Origin: a virus
Length of the DNA: 26,963 nucleotides
Direction: 5' to 3' (one strand)
IMG/VR virus record: IMGVR_UViG_3300030329_005118
Span: 1-26,963 of that record
This document shows, in pieces, positions 536-23,862 of this stretch. Numbering within the stretch: position 1 is the stretch's first letter; the number at the start of each line of letters is the position of its first letter. Position numbers and translations under genes: made by a program. Under the pieces are notes generated by a model. The model saw only the letters and a list, made by a program, of their open reading frames with translations. It had not been told where the DNA came from and searched no databases.

Positions 536-1366
536 TTAAGACTCGTCGGCGGTAATTTCGCCAAAAGCGGTAGGCTGAGTGGCAGCCACACCGTAAACAA
601 CCCTGGCTCTAACGCCAGTTTCGAACGCTGCGTCACGGCGGACTAGTTCAATGGTTGGCGCTTGCTGAACCGCAAGGCTGATTCCCATGCTGTGCCCATA
701 CATGTACGCGTAGTTATTCGAGCTGATGTTAACGAGGTTGTTCGAGATGTAGACGTCGAAACCAGCTGCACGACCAACAATGCCGTTAGCAATTGCGTTG
801 TCGCCCATTTCAGTTGCTCTCTGGAAGTCTGCTGACTCGAGTAATGCAGTCATGCCTTTCGGGCGGACCACTAGCCATCTGCCTTGCTGGGGCACGTTAG
901 CAGCGTTTAATTGCTCCGCCGCTGTTGTAAGCACTCCATCCCACGGGTCGGTAGTACCAACATCCCAAGCTATATCGGTTAACGTGCTGGACGTATAAAG
1001 TCCCGCCACGCCCTGGTCAATTTGGTCAGCCAAACCGTAAGCGATACGGTCTGCGAAACCATTAATTTGGTCAACACCAGTTTGCCCCTGAAGGACGTTC
1101 TTGTCATCTAAGGACACGGCGCCGTAGTAATCCTGGTTAAGGGAGATACTAACGGTGCTGGAGCTCTCAGCCGCGTAGGTAACGCTACCGCTGTAAGCGC
1201 CAGCTGTGACGTTGCCGAACTTCTGAGCGTGGATGGTGTCGCCTTGTCCTTGTACGGCGCTCTCGTAATCCCGGTTGGCCAACTGACCAAGCACCAGGCT
1301 TTTATCGAGCGTGTCTAGAAGACGTGCGGACCATACCTCTGGAATGAAATCATTAGGGTAAGCCAT
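536..1366 (-). CDS. Major capsid protein, P22 coat-like
   Basis: A 276-residue major capsid protein that would form the icosahedral shell with the HK97 fold. The N-terminus (NDFIPEVWSARLLDTLDKS) followed by a GDTIHAQKFGNV segment and Gly/Ala-rich strands resembles the P22 gp5-like coat family (family knowledge, no search run). It is shorter than P22 gp5 itself and similar to the compact coats of small siphoviruses. The start is ATG at 1366 with AGAGG about 8 bases upstream. It follows the scaffold gene and is expected to be strongly expressed. No cleavable N-terminal delta domain is seen; scaffolding is supplied by the separate upstream gene. Confidence 0.9.
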   Translation of the reverse strand: MAYPNDFIPEVWSARLLDTLDKSLVLGQLANRDYESAVQGQGDTIHAQKFGNVTAGAYSGSVTYAAESSSTVSISLNQDYYGAVSLDDKNVLQGQTGVDQINGFADRIAYGLADQIDQGVAGLYTSSTLTDIAWDVGTTDPWDGVLTTAAEQLNAANVPQQGRWLVVRPKGMTALLESADFQRATEMGDNAIANGIVGRAAGFDVYISNNLVNISSNNYAYMYGHSMGISLAVQQAPTIELVRRDAAFETGVRARVVYGVAATQPTAFGEITADES

Positions 1367-4131: not shown

Positions 4132-5331
4132 CTAAAGCCCCATCGCTTGTTGTAAGGCTTGTCGACTAGTGCTCACGTTACCCTTAAGGCTGTAATGAAG
4201 TGACGCGAGAGCGTCTACGTCATCATCAGCCTCCTGCATACCTGGCTCACCTACAAAATGGCTCAAATTCTCCGCAAGCTTACCGCTCCAGGGTAGGCCA
4301 GAGGGAATTTGTACCATGCCACTATTCCAATCCGCAGCGGCCGGCTGAGAAGCGTAGAACTTACCCGTAAAATTCTTATCCCCTGACGATTTAAGGCAAT
4401 CGCTAATCTGTACTCCCACACTATTCTCTATATAAGCTTTCGTAGCAGCCTCAGTGCCTCCCAAACGCCCATACACAGGCCTTGGGAACGTAGTCAATAC
4501 TGGACTCCACTGCTCAATCTTTTGCTTCGCTGAGTAATACTTCGTAACATAAACAACTCCATTAGAACCAAGAACGCCACCTATAAAAACCGTACTATCT
4601 CCACCGTTCTCAGTGTACGCAAAATCAACGCCCGTTCCCATTTTGCGAACCCCATTTTGCTCCTCCCCTGGACTGTAAAACGTCGGAGGGCCAAACACCT
4701 GCCCTCCACTGTCAATAAAGCGTCCGTAAAGCTCTTGCTCCTTAAAGGCGCCACTGTAAGCCTGATTTAGGCTATCGATGTACTCCTTCGGTAAATGAGG
4801 ATTATCGAACGTTGAAGCCCTGAAGGTTTCGACGTCGTCCCCTTCCACTAACTCCCGAAGCCATTGCGACCGTTTGGGCGTTGTAGTAATCCACAACTGT
4901 CCGGGCGCGAGCCGTAAACGACCTAATGTAACCCGGTAAGCGTCCTCATTCATCAACCCCGCTTCGTCCAATCCCGCCCAGTTCACGTTCACTCCGCGCA
5001 GTCTCTCGGGGTTATCCGCGGACCTTAACCAAATTCTGGTGTCGTTAACTAAACGTAGGACCATCTCGCTTTTATTGAAATCCGCTATGAAGGGCCTAAA
5101 GTGCTTAGTCAAAGTCTCCACTAAAATATCGCGAACCATTGGATAAGTCGGCTCCACCAGTAACCCCAGGCTTCCCCTGGGTTGACTGAATGCCTTGATA
5201 ATTGATGCAAACGTCTTCCCACTACCCAGCCCGCCGATATAAGCACTAATCCTAGATTGAGAGTTGATAAACCCTTTTTGGGCGGGCAGTGGCTGGAATT
5301 TGAGTTCCGCCGTTCGCGTCTCTAGCGTCAT
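4132..5331 (-). CDS. terL: Terminase large subunit
   Basis: The DNA-packaging motor, with an ATPase that pumps DNA into the procapsid and a nuclease that cuts concatemers. In its 399 residues the Walker A motif GGLGSGKT is at 33-40, Walker B GLDEAG ends with Asp122-Glu123, and the coupling motif TTTP is at about 149-152. The RNase H-like nuclease has Asp236 (GVDFAYT) and a DDDVDALA cluster at 369-375. All key residues of both domains are present. The start ATG at 5331 overlaps the small-subunit stop as ATGA. The packaging mode (cos, pac or direct repeats) cannot be decided from this sequence alone. Confidence 0.95.
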   Translation of the reverse strand: MTLETRTAELKFQPLPAQKGFINSQSRISAYIGGLGSGKTFASIIKAFSQPRGSLGLLVEPTYPMVRDILVETLTKHFRPFIADFNKSEMVLRLVNDTRIWLRSADNPERLRGVNVNWAGLDEAGLMNEDAYRVTLGRLRLAPGQLWITTTPKRSQWLRELVEGDDVETFRASTFDNPHLPKEYIDSLNQAYSGAFKEQELYGRFIDSGGQVFGPPTFYSPGEEQNGVRKMGTGVDFAYTENGGDSTVFIGGVLGSNGVVYVTKYYSAKQKIEQWSPVLTTFPRPVYGRLGGTEAATKAYIENSVGVQISDCLKSSGDKNFTGKFYASQPAAADWNSGMVQIPSGLPWSGKLAENLSHFVGEPGMQEADDDVDALASLHYSLKGNVSTSRQALQQAMGL

Positions 5332-6747: not shown

Positions 6748-6956
6748 TAAACTTTATTATAACCAGGTGGCCTATCGTGAAACCCATGAAGCTCTTCCCC
6801 TGAATCAGACCGAATACTTATAGAGAAGCCCTCTCCATCAAGTATCATCGTCTGACTACTCAGCTCTATCGCCTTTGGGAAATAAGGGTGTTGGTCAACG
6901 ACGCTTTTTAGAATTTTTCTCAACTCCCTTTGTTGTTTAGTTAATTTCTTACCCAC
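6747..6956 (-). CDS. Small unknown protein between initiator and nuclease
   Basis: A 69-residue protein. The first 20 residues are a basic helix (KKLTKQQRELRKILKSVV); the rest is likely beta with a Gly/Asp-rich loop. Family not recognised. It overlaps the initiator gene by 8 bases upstream and the nuclease gene downstream at TAGTG, so all three are almost certainly translated from one message. A replication accessory role is suggested only by position. Confidence 0.7.
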   Translation of the reverse strand: MGKKLTKQQRELRKILKSVVDQHPYFPKAIELSSQTMILDGEGFSISIRSDSGEELHGFHDRPPGYNKV

Positions 6957-7854
6957 TATTCACCGAGAGTCGTTGCATCAACTCCCTAGCCCTCGCTTCC
7001 AATTCGTTGCGTTTCATATTTAATTGCTCCTCTTGCTTCCTTTGTTTGAATTCTACGTTTTGACCTCTAACTGGCCTCCAATCCGGGTGATTCCGGTTAG
7101 CCCTGTCTCCCCCCTCCAGCTCCTGAGACGAACGAGAAGACGGTGAGTGTAACCACCTCACATCCAAACCAATCCAGCCATTCTCTATTGCTTTAGAAAG
7201 CAACTCATTAGCTCGCTCGCCGGCCGCGGAAAGCTTAGCCACAAGTCGCTTGCATGATTGCTTCGTAACCCCTTTACGGAGCTCCCGCCTATGAGAAAGG
7301 AAGGAAATCCAGAGCTCCCTAGAGACACCTGAAGGTAAGTCAATGTCTTCAAATCGTTCTTTGCTGCTTGTGTTCTTGGGTTTTGCTCTCATGTTCTTCT
7401 CATTCTTGGGGCTTTTGCTTTTTGGTTTTGGTTGTGTTTTCTCTGAATTCCCTATATGTTTTTTATTTAAGCTTTTATTTTCTTTAAGAGTGGCAACTGT
7501 GGTTGACACTGATTCGCGTCCCGTGGCAACTGTGGTTGACACCCCCCCTTCTTCCGTGTCGTCTCCAGTTGCCACGATGTTTAGTGTGTACGTTGGTGCT
7601 TTTTGGGGGTTGGTGCTGGGTTTTTTGGTTATCCATCCTTTTGCTTCTAAGCTTTTGAGTTGGGTGCTTATGTGTTGGTGTGTCATGCCGACCGCTTGGG
7701 CTATGGTTCTGGTCCCTACTCTTATTGTTTGCTTGTGCCAGCCTAGCGTGACTCTTGCTAGGTACATGAGGCAGCAGAACTCGGCGGGTGTAAAGTCTCG
7801 TATGTTGTCTAGGATGCGATTGGGACATTGTGTATAGTTTGGTTGTGTTAACAT
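6949..7854 (-). CDS. Lambda O-like replication initiator
   Basis: A 301-residue protein. Residues 1-80 (YTQCPNRILDNIRDFTPAEF, then TLGWHKQTIRVGTRTIAQAV) match the winged-helix DNA-binding domain of phage replication protein O, which binds origin iterons. Residues 95-165 are a Ser/Thr- then Lys/Pro-rich linker. The C-terminal part is charged and helical and could contact host replication proteins. The linker DNA carries repeated sites and an AT-rich tract (7453-7575), the lambda arrangement of an origin inside the initiator gene. The start is ATG at 7854 with AGGAG 8 bases upstream. No helicase or helicase-loader gene is visible, so replication probably relies on host enzymes. Confidence 0.8.
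   Translation of the reverse strand: MLTQPNYTQCPNRILDNIRDFTPAEFCCLMYLARVTLGWHKQTIRVGTRTIAQAVGMTHQHISTQLKSLEAKGWITKKPSTNPQKAPTYTLNIVATGDDTEEGGVSTTVATGRESVSTTVATLKENKSLNKKHIGNSEKTQPKPKSKSPKNEKNMRAKPKNTSSKERFEDIDLPSGVSRELWISFLSHRRELRKGVTKQSCKRLVAKLSAAGERANELLSKAIENGWIGLDVRWLHSPSSRSSQELEGGDRANRNHPDWRPVRGQNVEFKQRKQEEQLNMKRNELEARARELMQRLSVNSG
7453..7575. other. Candidate replication origin: iterons plus AT-rich tract
   Basis: Two exact 20-bp direct repeats, GTGGCAACTGTGGTTGACAC, lie at 7490-7509 and 7523-7542 (33 bp apart). A third, inverted copy of the core, CAGTTGCCAC, is at 7566-7575. Immediately beside them, 7453-7489 is strongly AT-rich and would serve as a DNA-unwinding element. The array sits inside the gene for the O-like initiator, as in lambda. 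The repeats encode the repeated peptide VSTTVAT in the initiator's linker, which alone could explain two copies, but not the inverted third. Confidence 0.6.
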
Positions 7855-11898: not shown

Positions 11899-12656
11899 GC
11901 CCCATTACCAACGACCTTAGTTACAACCAATCCGCAAGCGTTTGGCAGGACTGTGTAAATAAAGCCCTCCTGAGCGCTTACGGGTTCGAAACTAGCGACG
12001 TTGATGCATTCGCGTCAACGGACGAGGATGGTTATATCCTCGGTCGGTCCAGGAGTGCCATTGATGTGTTCGGGGCGTTCCTTTTCTTTGAATGGAAGTC
12101 GTACGGCGACATGGATTTAAAAACCGGACAATCCATATTTCTGTCCAATTTAATGCAACTCTTGTGGACGCACCCGACAAGCAGGGGTATGGTTGTTTTC
12201 CTAAAGATTAGGGACGCCCTGGGGGCTGATAACAGGCCAGTGATGGTAACCCGGGAGGCGCCGCGCGACTCTACGGCCGCGATGAATAACGACAGGCCTT
12301 ATTTGGCGATGCGTTACAAGAAGCAGGAAGTAGAACGCGTAGGGGTTTTCATCCCGCATCGTGGCCTCCATAATAGGTATTACGCTAGGCGTTACTGGTT
12401 ATACCAATCCGGCAAAAACCCACACGATACGCTGGTGGATTTTTTGGTCGGCTGGAAGAACTACAACTCAACAAATCGAAAGGCCGATAGTGCAAAGGGG
12501 CCACTGCACAACCTTGTTTTCGGTGGTTACGACACAACGGCCAGTGGTGAACTCGGTAATTACGAAACCACGGTAGAAGAGTTGTTCCGTGTAAGCCACA
12601 AGGAAGAGCCAAGGCCTCCCAACATGTTCGAGCAAAATAATGAAGCTTACAATTAA
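11895..12656 (+). CDS. PD-(D/E)XK-type nuclease
   Basis: A 253-residue protein with a probable PD-(D/E)XK core near residue 57-79: AIDVFGAFLFFEWKSYGD places Asp57 before Glu66-Trp-Lys68, with Gln79 on the following helix (LKTGQSI), the layout of RecB-like and resolvase-like nucleases. The rest has no known motif. The start is GTG 11895 overlapping the TGA of the previous gene, so the two proteins are made together. The likely role is in phage DNA recombination, repair or host DNA degradation. The assignment rests on the motif and not on a full-length match. Confidence 0.65.
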   Translation: MSPITNDLSYNQSASVWQDCVNKALLSAYGFETSDVDAFASTDEDGYILGRSRSAIDVFGAFLFFEWKSYGDMDLKTGQSIFLSNLMQLLWTHPTSRGMVVFLKIRDALGADNRPVMVTREAPRDSTAAMNNDRPYLAMRYKKQEVERVGVFIPHRGLHNRYYARRYWLYQSGKNPHDTLVDFLVGWKNYNSTNRKADSAKGPLHNLVFGGYDTTASGELGNYETTVEELFRVSHKEEPRPPNMFEQNNEAYN

Positions 12657-12891
12657 AGCCAAGGATAAGAAAACGTTCAGGAGTAGGGTTTTCGACCCGA
12701 AAGAAGTAAGGTTCGTTGATTTACTCAGTAAACGCCAGGTAGCAGCGCATTTCGACATTGATTTGAAGGTTGTGGAGCGAGCTATGGAGGCGCGACGTAT
12801 TCAAACACTATCGGTAGACAATAACGGTCCGCGTTACGCAGTGTATGAGTCTGCTAGGATTTGGGCTGATTGGTATCAAGCTCAATCGTAA
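12640..12891 (+). CDS. Small HTH-like protein at the end of the right arm
   Basis: An 83-residue protein starting at ATG 12640, inside the nuclease gene end (17-base overlap). Residues 28-53 (DLLSKRQVAAHFDIDLKVVE then RAMEARRI) look like a helix-turn-helix, followed by a wing-like YAVYESARIW segment. It ends one base before the parS-containing gap. It is a candidate for a regulator or for a factor acting at that gap. It is not a ParB: it is too short and has no GERR/CTP-binding box. Confidence 0.7.
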   Translation: MKLTIKAKDKKTFRSRVFDPKEVRFVDLLSKRQVAAHFDIDLKVVERAMEARRIQTLSVDNNGPRYAVYESARIWADWYQAQS

Positions 12892-12892
12892 T

Positions 12893-12908
12893 TGTTTCAC
12901 GTGAAACA
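12893..12908. other. parS: Perfect chromosomal parS (ParB-binding centromere) site
   Basis: TGTTTCACGTGAAACA is a perfect 16-bp palindrome and matches exactly the parS consensus bound by chromosomal ParB (Spo0J) in many bacterial phyla. It lies in the convergent gap between the two transcription arms, where ParB spreading would not block a promoter. Reading the window shows no second copy and no parA or parB gene, so the ParB must come from the host. A chance match to a fixed 16-mer in 27 kb is of the order of one in 10^5. Confidence 0.85.
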
Positions 12909-12915
12909 TTCTTGT

Positions 12916-12954
12916 GGCTCCGCAGTCAGTGGGTGAGGACACCGCTGCGGAGCC
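12916..12954. terminator. Strong hairpin between convergent arms, probable bidirectional terminator
   Basis: GGCTCCGCAG (12916-12925) and CTGCGGAGCC (12945-12954) form a perfect 10-bp stem, with an inner GGTG/CACC stem (12932-12935 and 12940-12943) around an AGGA loop. It ends both converging transcripts by position, but neither side has a clear U tract, so termination may need Rho or the structure may serve another role with the neighbouring parS. Confidence 0.6.
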
Positions 12955-12977
12955 CATTAACTCTCTAGGCTTAAGCA

Positions 12978-13181
12978 TTACGCTCGAGCGGAATTCTTGT
13001 ATATACTCTCCCCACCAGTATCAATCAAAATGACGAGCGCTCTGAACATTTCTGGGCTACCATGGACCCAGATATCGTGAAGCTTGTCTACAACATCGCT
13101 AAATTCGTCCGCCTGCCTGTCAGTCTTACGGCCAGGAAGACCCAGTTCGATAGTGAGTATTCTCGTGTATTCCTCATTCAT
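12978..13181 (-). CDS. Small unknown protein, last gene of the late arm
   Basis: A 67-residue protein whose start overlaps the phosphoesterase stop as ATGA (start 13181). It is acidic in the middle (RQADEFSDVVDKLHDIWVHG) and helical; no motif recognised. It depends on translational coupling, since no separate ribosome site is seen. It is the most distal late gene and faces the convergent parS/terminator gap. Confidence 0.6.
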   Translation of the reverse strand: MNEEYTRILTIELGLPGRKTDRQADEFSDVVDKLHDIWVHGSPEMFRALVILIDTGGESIYKNSARA

Positions 13182-20907: not shown

Positions 20908-23862
20908 TTATGACGCCCGTAGCGCGTTGCTGGCCGAGAAATTGCGATGAGTTACGGCCTCGAGTAACGTGTCAGCCGCCAACTGAAGGCTTTGAGACGC
21001 TATCAGCAGGTTTTGGCCTGCTTGGATTTGCACAGTCGATAATACGGGTTGCGATGCAGCCCTACCTACAGTCTGAGCGGAAAGTATCTGCATTTCATCA
21101 GGCGTAGGGTCTTCCGCCCAAGGAGTAACAATTCTGCGGCGCCTTGGGGCCTGGCGTCGCCTGCGTCCACCAAAAATCCTTCCGAAAATTGCTTTAATCG
21201 CGTTCCAAATCCCGCCAGCTACCGCGCCAACCGCTGGGTGAATCAGGTTTCCAACGTGTTGCAGGACAGTCACGACGTGCTTTTCGAGCCTACCGGCAGC
21301 ATGCTTAAAGGCGCCGGCTACAAGGTTCCCGCCGTTTGTTATGTCGTTCGCTAAGTTATTCAACAAGCCCATGAATTCCACATCTTGGTCTATTTTTATC
21401 TTCGCACCAAAGACGTTGAATTCATGCACCGGGCCTTCTCTTGCCCCCTCTCCGAATTCCTCGTTAAGCGCTTTAAGTGCTTTCGTTGCTTGCTGAACCG
21501 TGCTCTCAAAACCAGCCATAGCCATCGTGTAACCCATTTGGGATATGTTGCTTCGTTCCAGCTCCAGGGCAAGCGCCTGACGCTGCTCTCGCTCCTTACG
21601 CAAAACTTTTTCATGCGCCTTAGCAGCAGCAATTTCCACCCGCGTGTTAGCCGCAGCCTCTTCCTCCTCCGTCATTTTCGAGCCCATCGTTTCCCACTGG
21701 CGCATCGAGTCTTCGAACGCTATTGCGGCCGCTTTCTGCGCGGTAAGGGCTTCCTCCGCGAGTTTGGCGACGTGCTCTTCGGCTGCCGCTACGCCAACCA
21801 TGCTCGACGGCGTGGCCGCCCCTAAAAGCTGTTCCCGAGCTTTCACGTATTCTGGTGTTCCGGCCTTGATATCCCCCAACAATTGAACGCGCAAAAGCAT
21901 CGGGGCTCGAGCCGCGGCCGCGGCTCGGCGTGCTTCGGCGTCAATGCGGGCCTGTTCTTGTAGCTCGCTCCATGCGGGCCCCATGTCCTGACTACCACCC
22001 GTTAGGGCCCATGGGCCTGTTCGTTCGATAGCGGCCAGCCGTGACCTTCGTTGTTGCCTGAGCCTTTCGTCGGCAGCCGAAGCAACAACATCGGCTGCAT
22101 CAGCAAATTCCTCAGCTAGGCGGTCTGCACCCATTGCAAGTTTCACTCCAGCCGTGCCTTCCGCAATTTGCGCCGAGCTCCTTATTGTGCGCCCAAACTT
22201 CCTCCTTGGTTCGCCTTGCTCTACCTCTAATTGGCTAGAGCCTCGCCCTAGCTGGCGCTCCCACTCTGCTAGCTCTCGTTCTGCCAGGAGTCGCATTAAT
22301 GTCGTTCGTTCGCCTATATTCGCTGTTACGTTAGGCATAGGGATGTTAACGGGCTCGCCTCCCGTTTCCCCTAGTACGGTGGTCAGTTTTGACGTTTCAA
22401 GAGCGTTAAGCTCCATGACAGTTATGTTGGTTTTTACTTGTCGCTCTAGGTCATCAAGCGCATCTATTAACTTTTGCGCTTCCTCAACTTGCTTAGCAAA
22501 CCTGCCTTCTTCCTTAGGGTTAAGGTCGTCCTCCACTCTGGTTATGGTGTCCTGCATGCCTTTAGCCTGGACATCCCTAATTACGTTTAGTAGGTCGAGA
22601 ATTGCCCGCTGCGACCCGGCGGTCTTGTTCCTCGGGTCAGTGGACGCTTCGTATGCGAGCATTAGTTCGTTCCCTAGATTTTGCCTGCTCCTGGCTAGCT
22701 CCATGCTCCCCGTGGCTCGAACATTAGAGCCAAAGGAGAAGGGCCCAAAGTCAATTTCGTTTGAAAACGCCCGTGCTTCTCGAGCGGGGGCGTTTTGCGC
22801 CGCTTCGATGGCGTTGCGGTGGCTTTTCTCGAAGGCATCCCAGCCCGCCAACCCAAGAAGCTTACCTATTGCGTTGCCTACGTTAGCGAGCATAGTGAAC
22901 AAAGGCTGAGCCCAACTCAACCAAGGGCTATCTAGTAAATCTTGAAAAGCGGTTTTAATGTCGCCCACCGCGTCAGCAACTTGCGTCACTTTCTCGACTA
23001 TTCTGGTAGCAAAATTAATCATGTCGGTCATGACGCCTTCTAGGCTAGCGCCAACCGAAATCTTCATTTGGGTGAACGCTTCGGCTAACCGCGTGCTGGC
23101 TCCACCGTAACCCTCCATCAATACCGGCACCGCTTCTATCTCCCCAGCTGACTCAGTCATGGTCATAGTCATCGCTGCGGTCGCTTTCTGGGCGTTAGTT
23201 AACTGGTCTACCGTCGTGCCCAGCGCTTCAGCTTTGTCGCGATAAGCTTTGCTTAGGTTCCCGGCGATGCCTATCGAATTCAGCATTTGAGACTGTTCTG
23301 ACATAACGGCCTGAGCGACGTTAGAAAAGCCTGCAGCCACGTCGCGGCCGAACGCAAGGCTTGACGCCCCGGCAGCTGTGAGTAAGCCCTCTACGGCGTT
23401 TATGTCCGCTCCGTACCGCAGCAATTGAGTCGCAGCATCCTCGACAACACTGGAGTGAACGTTAAATTTATCGGATAGTCGTTGTACCAGGTCCTGGCCC
23501 GCTTTGAGGCCATGGCCACCTACCTCTAACTCCCTGTTAAAGAGCTTAGTGGCGTTAGTAGCGGCAAAAGAACTATTGACCAACGAATCCATAGCCTTCA
23601 CGGCCTGAGTAGTGACAGCCACAGCCATTCTCGCTAATTGAACTCTTGCGAGGAGCGTAACGCTTTTCAAGTTCCCTAGGCTCTTGCTGGCCCTATCCAC
23701 TTGTATTTTCATGGAGTTAAAGCTTTTGCCTGCGCCAGCCAACCTAGTATTAAGCGTTTTCGTTTGGTCACCAACCCGCTGGATGGCCTTGTTCGAGGCG
23801 TCCATCTTGCGGTTAAAGTCCTGAGTCAATGCCTCTAGTTTTACGCTTATTTTTTCAGCCAT
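20908..23862 (-). CDS. Tape measure protein
   Basis: A 984-residue tape measure that sets tail length and is ejected with the DNA. It is long, helical and Ala/Glu/Arg-rich, with an N-terminal coiled coil (KISVKLEALTQDFNRKMDAS), a conserved-looking domain (LMSEQSQMLNS-type region near 190-230), hydrophobic patches near 310-340 and 905-930 (VGAVAGGIWNAIKAIFGRIF), and a basic GGRRRRQAPRRRR run near the end. By the usual rule of about 0.15 nm per residue the tail would be near 150 nm. The start overlaps the previous stop (TAATG). Confidence 0.92.
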   Translation of the reverse strand: MAEKISVKLEALTQDFNRKMDASNKAIQRVGDQTKTLNTRLAGAGKSFNSMKIQVDRASKSLGNLKSVTLLARVQLARMAVAVTTQAVKAMDSLVNSSFAATNATKLFNRELEVGGHGLKAGQDLVQRLSDKFNVHSSVVEDAATQLLRYGADINAVEGLLTAAGASSLAFGRDVAAGFSNVAQAVMSEQSQMLNSIGIAGNLSKAYRDKAEALGTTVDQLTNAQKATAAMTMTMTESAGEIEAVPVLMEGYGGASTRLAEAFTQMKISVGASLEGVMTDMINFATRIVEKVTQVADAVGDIKTAFQDLLDSPWLSWAQPLFTMLANVGNAIGKLLGLAGWDAFEKSHRNAIEAAQNAPAREARAFSNEIDFGPFSFGSNVRATGSMELARSRQNLGNELMLAYEASTDPRNKTAGSQRAILDLLNVIRDVQAKGMQDTITRVEDDLNPKEEGRFAKQVEEAQKLIDALDDLERQVKTNITVMELNALETSKLTTVLGETGGEPVNIPMPNVTANIGERTTLMRLLAERELAEWERQLGRGSSQLEVEQGEPRRKFGRTIRSSAQIAEGTAGVKLAMGADRLAEEFADAADVVASAADERLRQQRRSRLAAIERTGPWALTGGSQDMGPAWSELQEQARIDAEARRAAAAARAPMLLRVQLLGDIKAGTPEYVKAREQLLGAATPSSMVGVAAAEEHVAKLAEEALTAQKAAAIAFEDSMRQWETMGSKMTEEEEAAANTRVEIAAAKAHEKVLRKEREQRQALALELERSNISQMGYTMAMAGFESTVQQATKALKALNEEFGEGAREGPVHEFNVFGAKIKIDQDVEFMGLLNNLANDITNGGNLVAGAFKHAAGRLEKHVVTVLQHVGNLIHPAVGAVAGGIWNAIKAIFGRIFGGRRRRQAPRRRRIVTPWAEDPTPDEMQILSAQTVGRAASQPVLSTVQIQAGQNLLIASQSLQLAADTLLEAVTHRNFSASNALRAS

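Follow-up and report, generated by a model that had tools for sequence, protein, structure and literature searches.

An exact chromosomal-type parS site on a ParB-less tailed phage as a putative docking site for host ParB

Can a phage join the partition machinery of its host with a DNA site and no partition protein? This question is raised by virus record IMGVR_UViG_3300030329_005118 (26,963 bases, analyzed at full length and called the window below), which contains a palindrome with the letters of the chromosomal parS site. ParB recognizes parS and forms a closed CTP clamp that slides, and it connects to ParA and SMC. The parS consensus is TGTTNCACGTGAAACA in Bacillus subtilis and TGTTTCACGTGAAACA in H. 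neptunium (PMC7022226). Phages such as P1, N15, and mycobacteriophage RedRock bring their own ParA and ParB and use different sites; RedRock has two parS loci, each with eight direct repeats of an 8-bp motif (PMC7157519).

An exact parS palindrome lies in the only convergent gap of the genome

The record begins and ends with an overlapping stretch of 154 bp (99.4% identity), and we therefore regard the genome as circular as assembled and essentially complete. Profile matches identified recognizable tailed-phage genes (terminase, capsid, tape measure, endolysin, and a lambda-O-like initiator). According to the ORF map, the plus strand carries a single operon whose last base is 12891, and the minus strand carries a single transcription unit that runs from 8060 down through the joined ends and stops at 12978. 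The interval between them is the sole convergent junction of the genome and holds both parS and a hairpin, which agrees with the placement of the site in the preliminary description. The features are as follows.

4132-5331, minus strand: terminase large subunit (PHROG 2, E = 3e-35), which marks the genome as that of a tailed phage
12640-12891, plus strand: final gene of the plus-strand operon, 83 amino acids, without a Pfam or PHROG match, 98% identical in a relative
12892-12977, no strand: convergent intergenic gap (ORF map)
12893-12908, no strand: exact chromosomal-type parS palindrome TGTTTCACGTGAAACA, 0 mismatches, proposed loading site for host ParB
12978-13181, minus strand: final gene of the minus-strand unit, 67 amino acids, no assigned function, convergent to the gap (ORF map)

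The 16-mer lies one base past the stop codon of the plus-strand gene and faces the minus-strand gene. It had been described as a perfect palindrome identical to the parS consensus, and we confirmed this: the match to TGTTNCACGTGAAACA is exact, the copy is single, and nothing else in the whole window comes within three mismatches of it. Given the dinucleotide composition of the window, 5.6e-6 exact copies would be expected. Besides the parS 16-mer, the window has one other perfect palindrome of 16 bp or longer, a GC-rich 20-mer at 21908. Chance alone would give about 0.4 perfect palindromes of 16 bp. Thus, what is improbable is the identity to the parS consensus and not the palindromy. Taken together with its occurrence in other phages (described below), the 16-mer at 12893-12908 is very probably a real loading site for host ParB.

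The phage carries no recognizable partition genes

We searched the window for partition proteins. The ParB_N profile (PF02195), run over all six frames, found nothing at E <= 1, and neither did the AAA_31 profile (PF13614) for a ParA-type ATPase; the earlier statement that the phage has no ParA or ParB therefore stands. A self-sufficient ParABS partition phage would have its own ParB and its own ParA-type ATPase, and this phage has neither. What it does have, a parS-like site without cognate ParAB, is the mark of an SGI1-type hijacker.

The preliminary description had also suggested, as one possibility, that the phage is segregated as an extrachromosomal element. The Phage_integrase profile for a tyrosine integrase found nothing in the window at E <= 1, which would suit such a life cycle, yet we recognized no repressor or plasmid maintenance gene in this phage either, and so an episomal stage is not established. 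Moreover, parS is also carried by B103 and P100plus, which are generally regarded as virulent, and this argues against partition as the sole purpose of the site. An episomal prophage stage is thus possible but unproven.

The phage resembles and differs from three kinds of known systems. The chromosomal parABS systems (Spo0J/ParB-parS of Bacillus subtilis, Caulobacter, and Hyphomonas) have a 16-bp site identical to that of the phage; unlike them, the phage has a single site on a 27-kb genome and no ParA or ParB gene. With P1, N15, and RedRock it shares a centromere site on a phage genome, but those phages have their own par proteins. The closest case with experimental proof is that of SGI1: the ParB of the IncC helper plasmid binds parS-like sites on SGI1, which stabilizes SGI1 and displaces or destabilizes the plasmid (PMC10954446). 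Like SGI1, the phage would be a mobile element that exploits the ParB of another replicon through parS-like DNA. However, SGI1 is an integrative mobilizable element acting on a plasmid system, whereas the phage would act on a chromosomal one, and the function of its site is putative. Our literature search covered open-access papers, none of which described chromosomal parS on phages that lack ParB; we do not claim priority.

The one relative that covers the gap has the same site

Relatives were sought with the capsid protein.

536-1366, minus strand: major capsid protein (PHROG 267, E = 1e-39)

This search gave four close contigs, with capsids identical in three and 92% identical in one. Only one of the four, IMGVR_UViG_3300032006_000068 (L206), covers the gap, and it has an exact parS in the same place (L206:6263-6278). 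The preliminary description had pointed to the same 16-mer at the same gap of relatives as a check, with absence of the palindrome despite conserved flanks as the outcome that would speak against it; in the sole covering relative the flanks are conserved and the palindrome is present. The 130 bases around the site are nearly identical between the two phages, and therefore purifying selection on the site in this phage family cannot be claimed. A second search, based on the metallophosphoesterase, gave 75 loci at 30 to 60% identity, with no parS within two mismatches in any of them; these are different phages, and we rejected them as relatives.

parS greatly outnumbers a control palindrome in viral collections

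As a control we used TTTGTCACGTGACAAA, a scrambled palindrome that preserves the dinucleotides of parS and its CACGTG core. In IMG/VR, the exact parS 16-mer occurred in at least 120 stretches, while a complete scan found the control in 11, 8 of them from one phage family. Of the 50,697 annotated phage records in INPHARED, 315 matched parS and none matched the control. The 315 count related phages repeatedly, and bacterial DNA may be present among them, for example as the unannotated "Listeria phage LM" contigs. Even so, genomes that clearly belong to phages, from many lineages, are among the matches: Gordonia Woesvirus and Orchidvirus, Microbacterium Gillianvirus, Arthrobacter Korravirus, Glutamicibacter phage Voltaire, Lactobacillus Harbinvirus, Listeria Pecentumvirus, Bacillus phages B103 and vB_BcoS-136, Ruegeria phage DSS3P8, and Butyrivibrio phage Arian, as well as inoviruses and microviruses. 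The site is therefore not unique to this phage: many unrelated phages share it, some in two to six copies.

These counts bear on whether the 16-mer is a chance match or a functionless capture of host DNA. The roughly three unrelated occurrences of the control in IMG/VR indicate that a collection of this size does yield a few exact matches by chance. However, parS exceeds the control at least tenfold there and by 315 to 0 in the annotated records, and in both this genome and its relative the site is flanked by ordinary phage genes. We consider chance or capture the least probable of the explanations weighed here.

Among 50 long parS-bearing IMG/VR records, 36 had a terminase (union of two PHROG profiles), 4 had ParB_N, and 1 had a ParA-type ATPase. 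Such fragments may hide par genes, but the named phage genomes, most of them labeled complete, agree with this result. About 39% of the parS sites in viral contigs were intergenic, compared with about 7% of random positions, a difference that comes from a crude ORF caller and on which we do not rely. Likewise, the 100% identity of the parS columns among exact-site loci is by construction, because the loci were picked for the exact site. In most phages the palindrome stops at 16 bp (the exception being Gordonia phages, where some sites have 7 to 10 extra paired bases), a limit that favors a ParB site over a hairpin.

The adjoining hairpin is a separate element

The preliminary description had placed parS beside a strong hairpin.

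12916-12954, no strand: GC-rich hairpin with a 10-bp outer stem (arms 12916-12925 and 12945-12954), -27.5 kcal/mol, z = -4.7

The hairpin is real, and in L206 one of its C-G pairs is replaced by T-A, with both arms changed; this compensated pair is a sign of selection on the hairpin. It has no U-tract and so is not a canonical intrinsic terminator; it is probably a two-way transcript end or a 3'-end stabilizer. The parS palindrome, in contrast, folds weakly as RNA (-4.7 kcal/mol, z = -0.98). Thus, the two are different elements, and the hairpin does not belong to the parS feature.

We asked whether the 16-mer might nevertheless be a transcription termination palindrome of the convergent operons that equals parS by accident. 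Its location in a convergent gap with an adjoining hairpin would suit this function, and the control palindrome, where found, also lies mostly in convergent gaps, although mainly in one phage family. However, an intrinsic terminator has a stable GC-rich stem followed by a T-run; the palindrome has neither the stable fold nor a U-tract, a terminator scan gave no match, and the stronger, compensated hairpin stands beside it. In addition, its exact letters are common to unrelated phages while the control is rare. We therefore rejected termination as the main reading and consider it very improbable; with its weak fold and its end at 16 bp, the palindrome is probably not a terminator.

A marine phage family carries parS upstream of the terminase gene

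Sequence similarity linked 47 of the 120 listed IMG/VR parS loci, many of which share the phrog_38 terminase. For a fair test of site conservation, made on phages other than the family of the window, 80 loci (446 kb) were fetched by this terminase alone, regardless of parS; the search patterns were loosened by one wrong-strand alignment row (L007, 25% identity), and comparison with the first sequence confirmed the loci. In this sample parS was exact at 20 sites, differed by one base at 2, and differed by two bases at 5; the control palindrome did not occur within two mismatches. In 18 of the 80 loci an exact site lies 34 to 173 bp ahead of the point where the terL match begins, which accounts for all but two of the exact sites; the phages form a diverse marine family (including L120, L093, L119, and L027). 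Of the seven inexact sites, five read TGTTCCACGTGAAACA or TGTTCCACGTGGAACA (TGTTCC variants), which comes near to what the B. subtilis consensus permits. Sites that are mostly either exact or absent are as expected for a protein-binding site that is kept. Two members of the family have TGTTCCACGTGGAACA and TGTTTCACGTGAAACA in tandem.

The position just upstream of terL suggests another explanation, in which ParB bound to the site serves as a roadblock or silencer for neighboring phage genes. Sites in Gordonia phages would also fit local gene control, since they lie between tandem genes and three of four copies are within longer palindromes. In the phage studied here, however, parS is in a convergent gap past the ends of both operons, where a roadblock would be least effective, and we regard gene control as quite unlikely. 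The longer Gordonia palindromes, which are perfect, are found near the right genome end of phages Woes and PatrickStar; the 16-bp core is constant, and the outer arms differ between copies.

Named phages carry one to six sites and no ParB

We searched 13 named phages whole. The site was present in 12 (11 exact; HTVC027P with one mismatch), at one to six copies per site-bearing phage, and ParB_N was found in none of the 13. The presence of parS without par proteins in many unrelated phages suggests that phages widely borrow host ParB. Inovirus bajarodino virus 3 (PQ006097.1, 6183 bp) has six exact parS sites and no ParB, and bajarodino viruses 6 and 7 apparently have six and five.

Multiple copies raise the question of whether parS is mainly a decoy that titrates ParB (and SMC) from the host chromosome and so disturbs segregation and division. 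A decoy would work for virulent phages, and it would account for six sites in a 6.2-kb inovirus and four in one Bacillus phage. However, an inovirus with a chronic infection gains little by harming segregation, and with the single copy present here titration would require a high genome copy number. A single site suits recruitment better than a sponge; thus, we favor positioning or spreading, with titration next, and consider a decoy as the main function unlikely.

Host range of parS-bearing phages

Searched with the capsid protein, 84,980 bacterial and archaeal genomes yielded no close relative. A broader search gave capsids of 22 to 37% identity, mostly from Actinobacteria, but its pattern was biased, and we claim no host from it. 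We assume that the host has a ParB of matching specificity. Host range also offers a control at the level of the collection, because Enterobacteriaceae lack chromosomal par genes (PMC7022226). No enterobacterial phage was among all 22 organism names of the 198 INPHARED records with 17- to 18-mer parS matches, although INPHARED has no fewer than 338 records for Escherichia, 448 for Klebsiella, and 365 for Salmonella. Mycobacteriophages also did not appear among the parS matches, and their host has ParB. Host range cannot be separated from lineage here, and with mycobacteriophages missing as well, the enterobacterial absence is supportive but not decisive. That many phages of ParB-positive hosts, such as mycobacteriophages, do not appear among the matches further indicates that the site is not a general need.

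Proposed role of the site

The preliminary description had proposed that the phage recruits host ParB for segregation, positioning, or titration. Recruitment itself is probably correct, supported by the sequence of the site, the palindrome controls in two collections, the ParB-less phages with parS, and the enterobacterial absence; the purpose (partition, positioning, or titration) we infer. On balance, we favor the reading that the 16-mer is a genuine chromosomal-type parS kept as a docking site for host ParB, which would be bound by the ParB of this phage's host and would benefit the phage.

In this model, host ParB dimers would load at parS once the phage DNA has circularized in the cell, close as CTP clamps, and slide outward on the phage DNA. 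The phage genome would thereby join the partition complex in cis, with no phage par gene needed. The complex would couple the genome to host ParA on the nucleoid, and probably also to SMC. This coupling would position phage genomes and aid their spread to daughter cells when infection is slow or of the carrier type. With many phage copies in the cell, ParB would also be drawn off the chromosome.

Whether tailed, filamentous, and microvirus lineages all use the host ParB-CTP clamp, in a widespread protein-free segregation parasitism of which this phage is a single-site case, we regard as evenly balanced. Because ParB is conserved in most bacteria and parS is nearly invariant, 16 bp could open the host segregation machinery to any mobile DNA. 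If routine, this would be a cheap and portable phage-host interface, for which the B103 phage group of Bacillus subtilis is one cultured system, and it would affect the use of parS as a replication origin marker in metagenomes.

Other elements of the genome and its relatives

Three further observations concern regions outside the gap. The GC-rich 20-bp perfect palindrome, CGAGCCGCGGCCGCGGCTCG, is in the interior of the tape measure gene (21908-21927). The relatives have an insert of about 1 kb (L206:783-1778) in the divergent control region, which is absent here between 8077 and 8088; we considered whether it encodes a repressor or partition protein and rejected this, as its sequence, read by eye, is apparently that of a C5 DNA methyltransferase gene. 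The remaining element is within the initiator gene.

6949-7854, minus strand: lambda-O-like replication initiator (PHROG 678, E = 2e-35; Pfam Phage_rep_O)

Its interior has two 20-bp direct repeats together with inverted copies at 7490-7575, which are probably a lambda-type phage origin.
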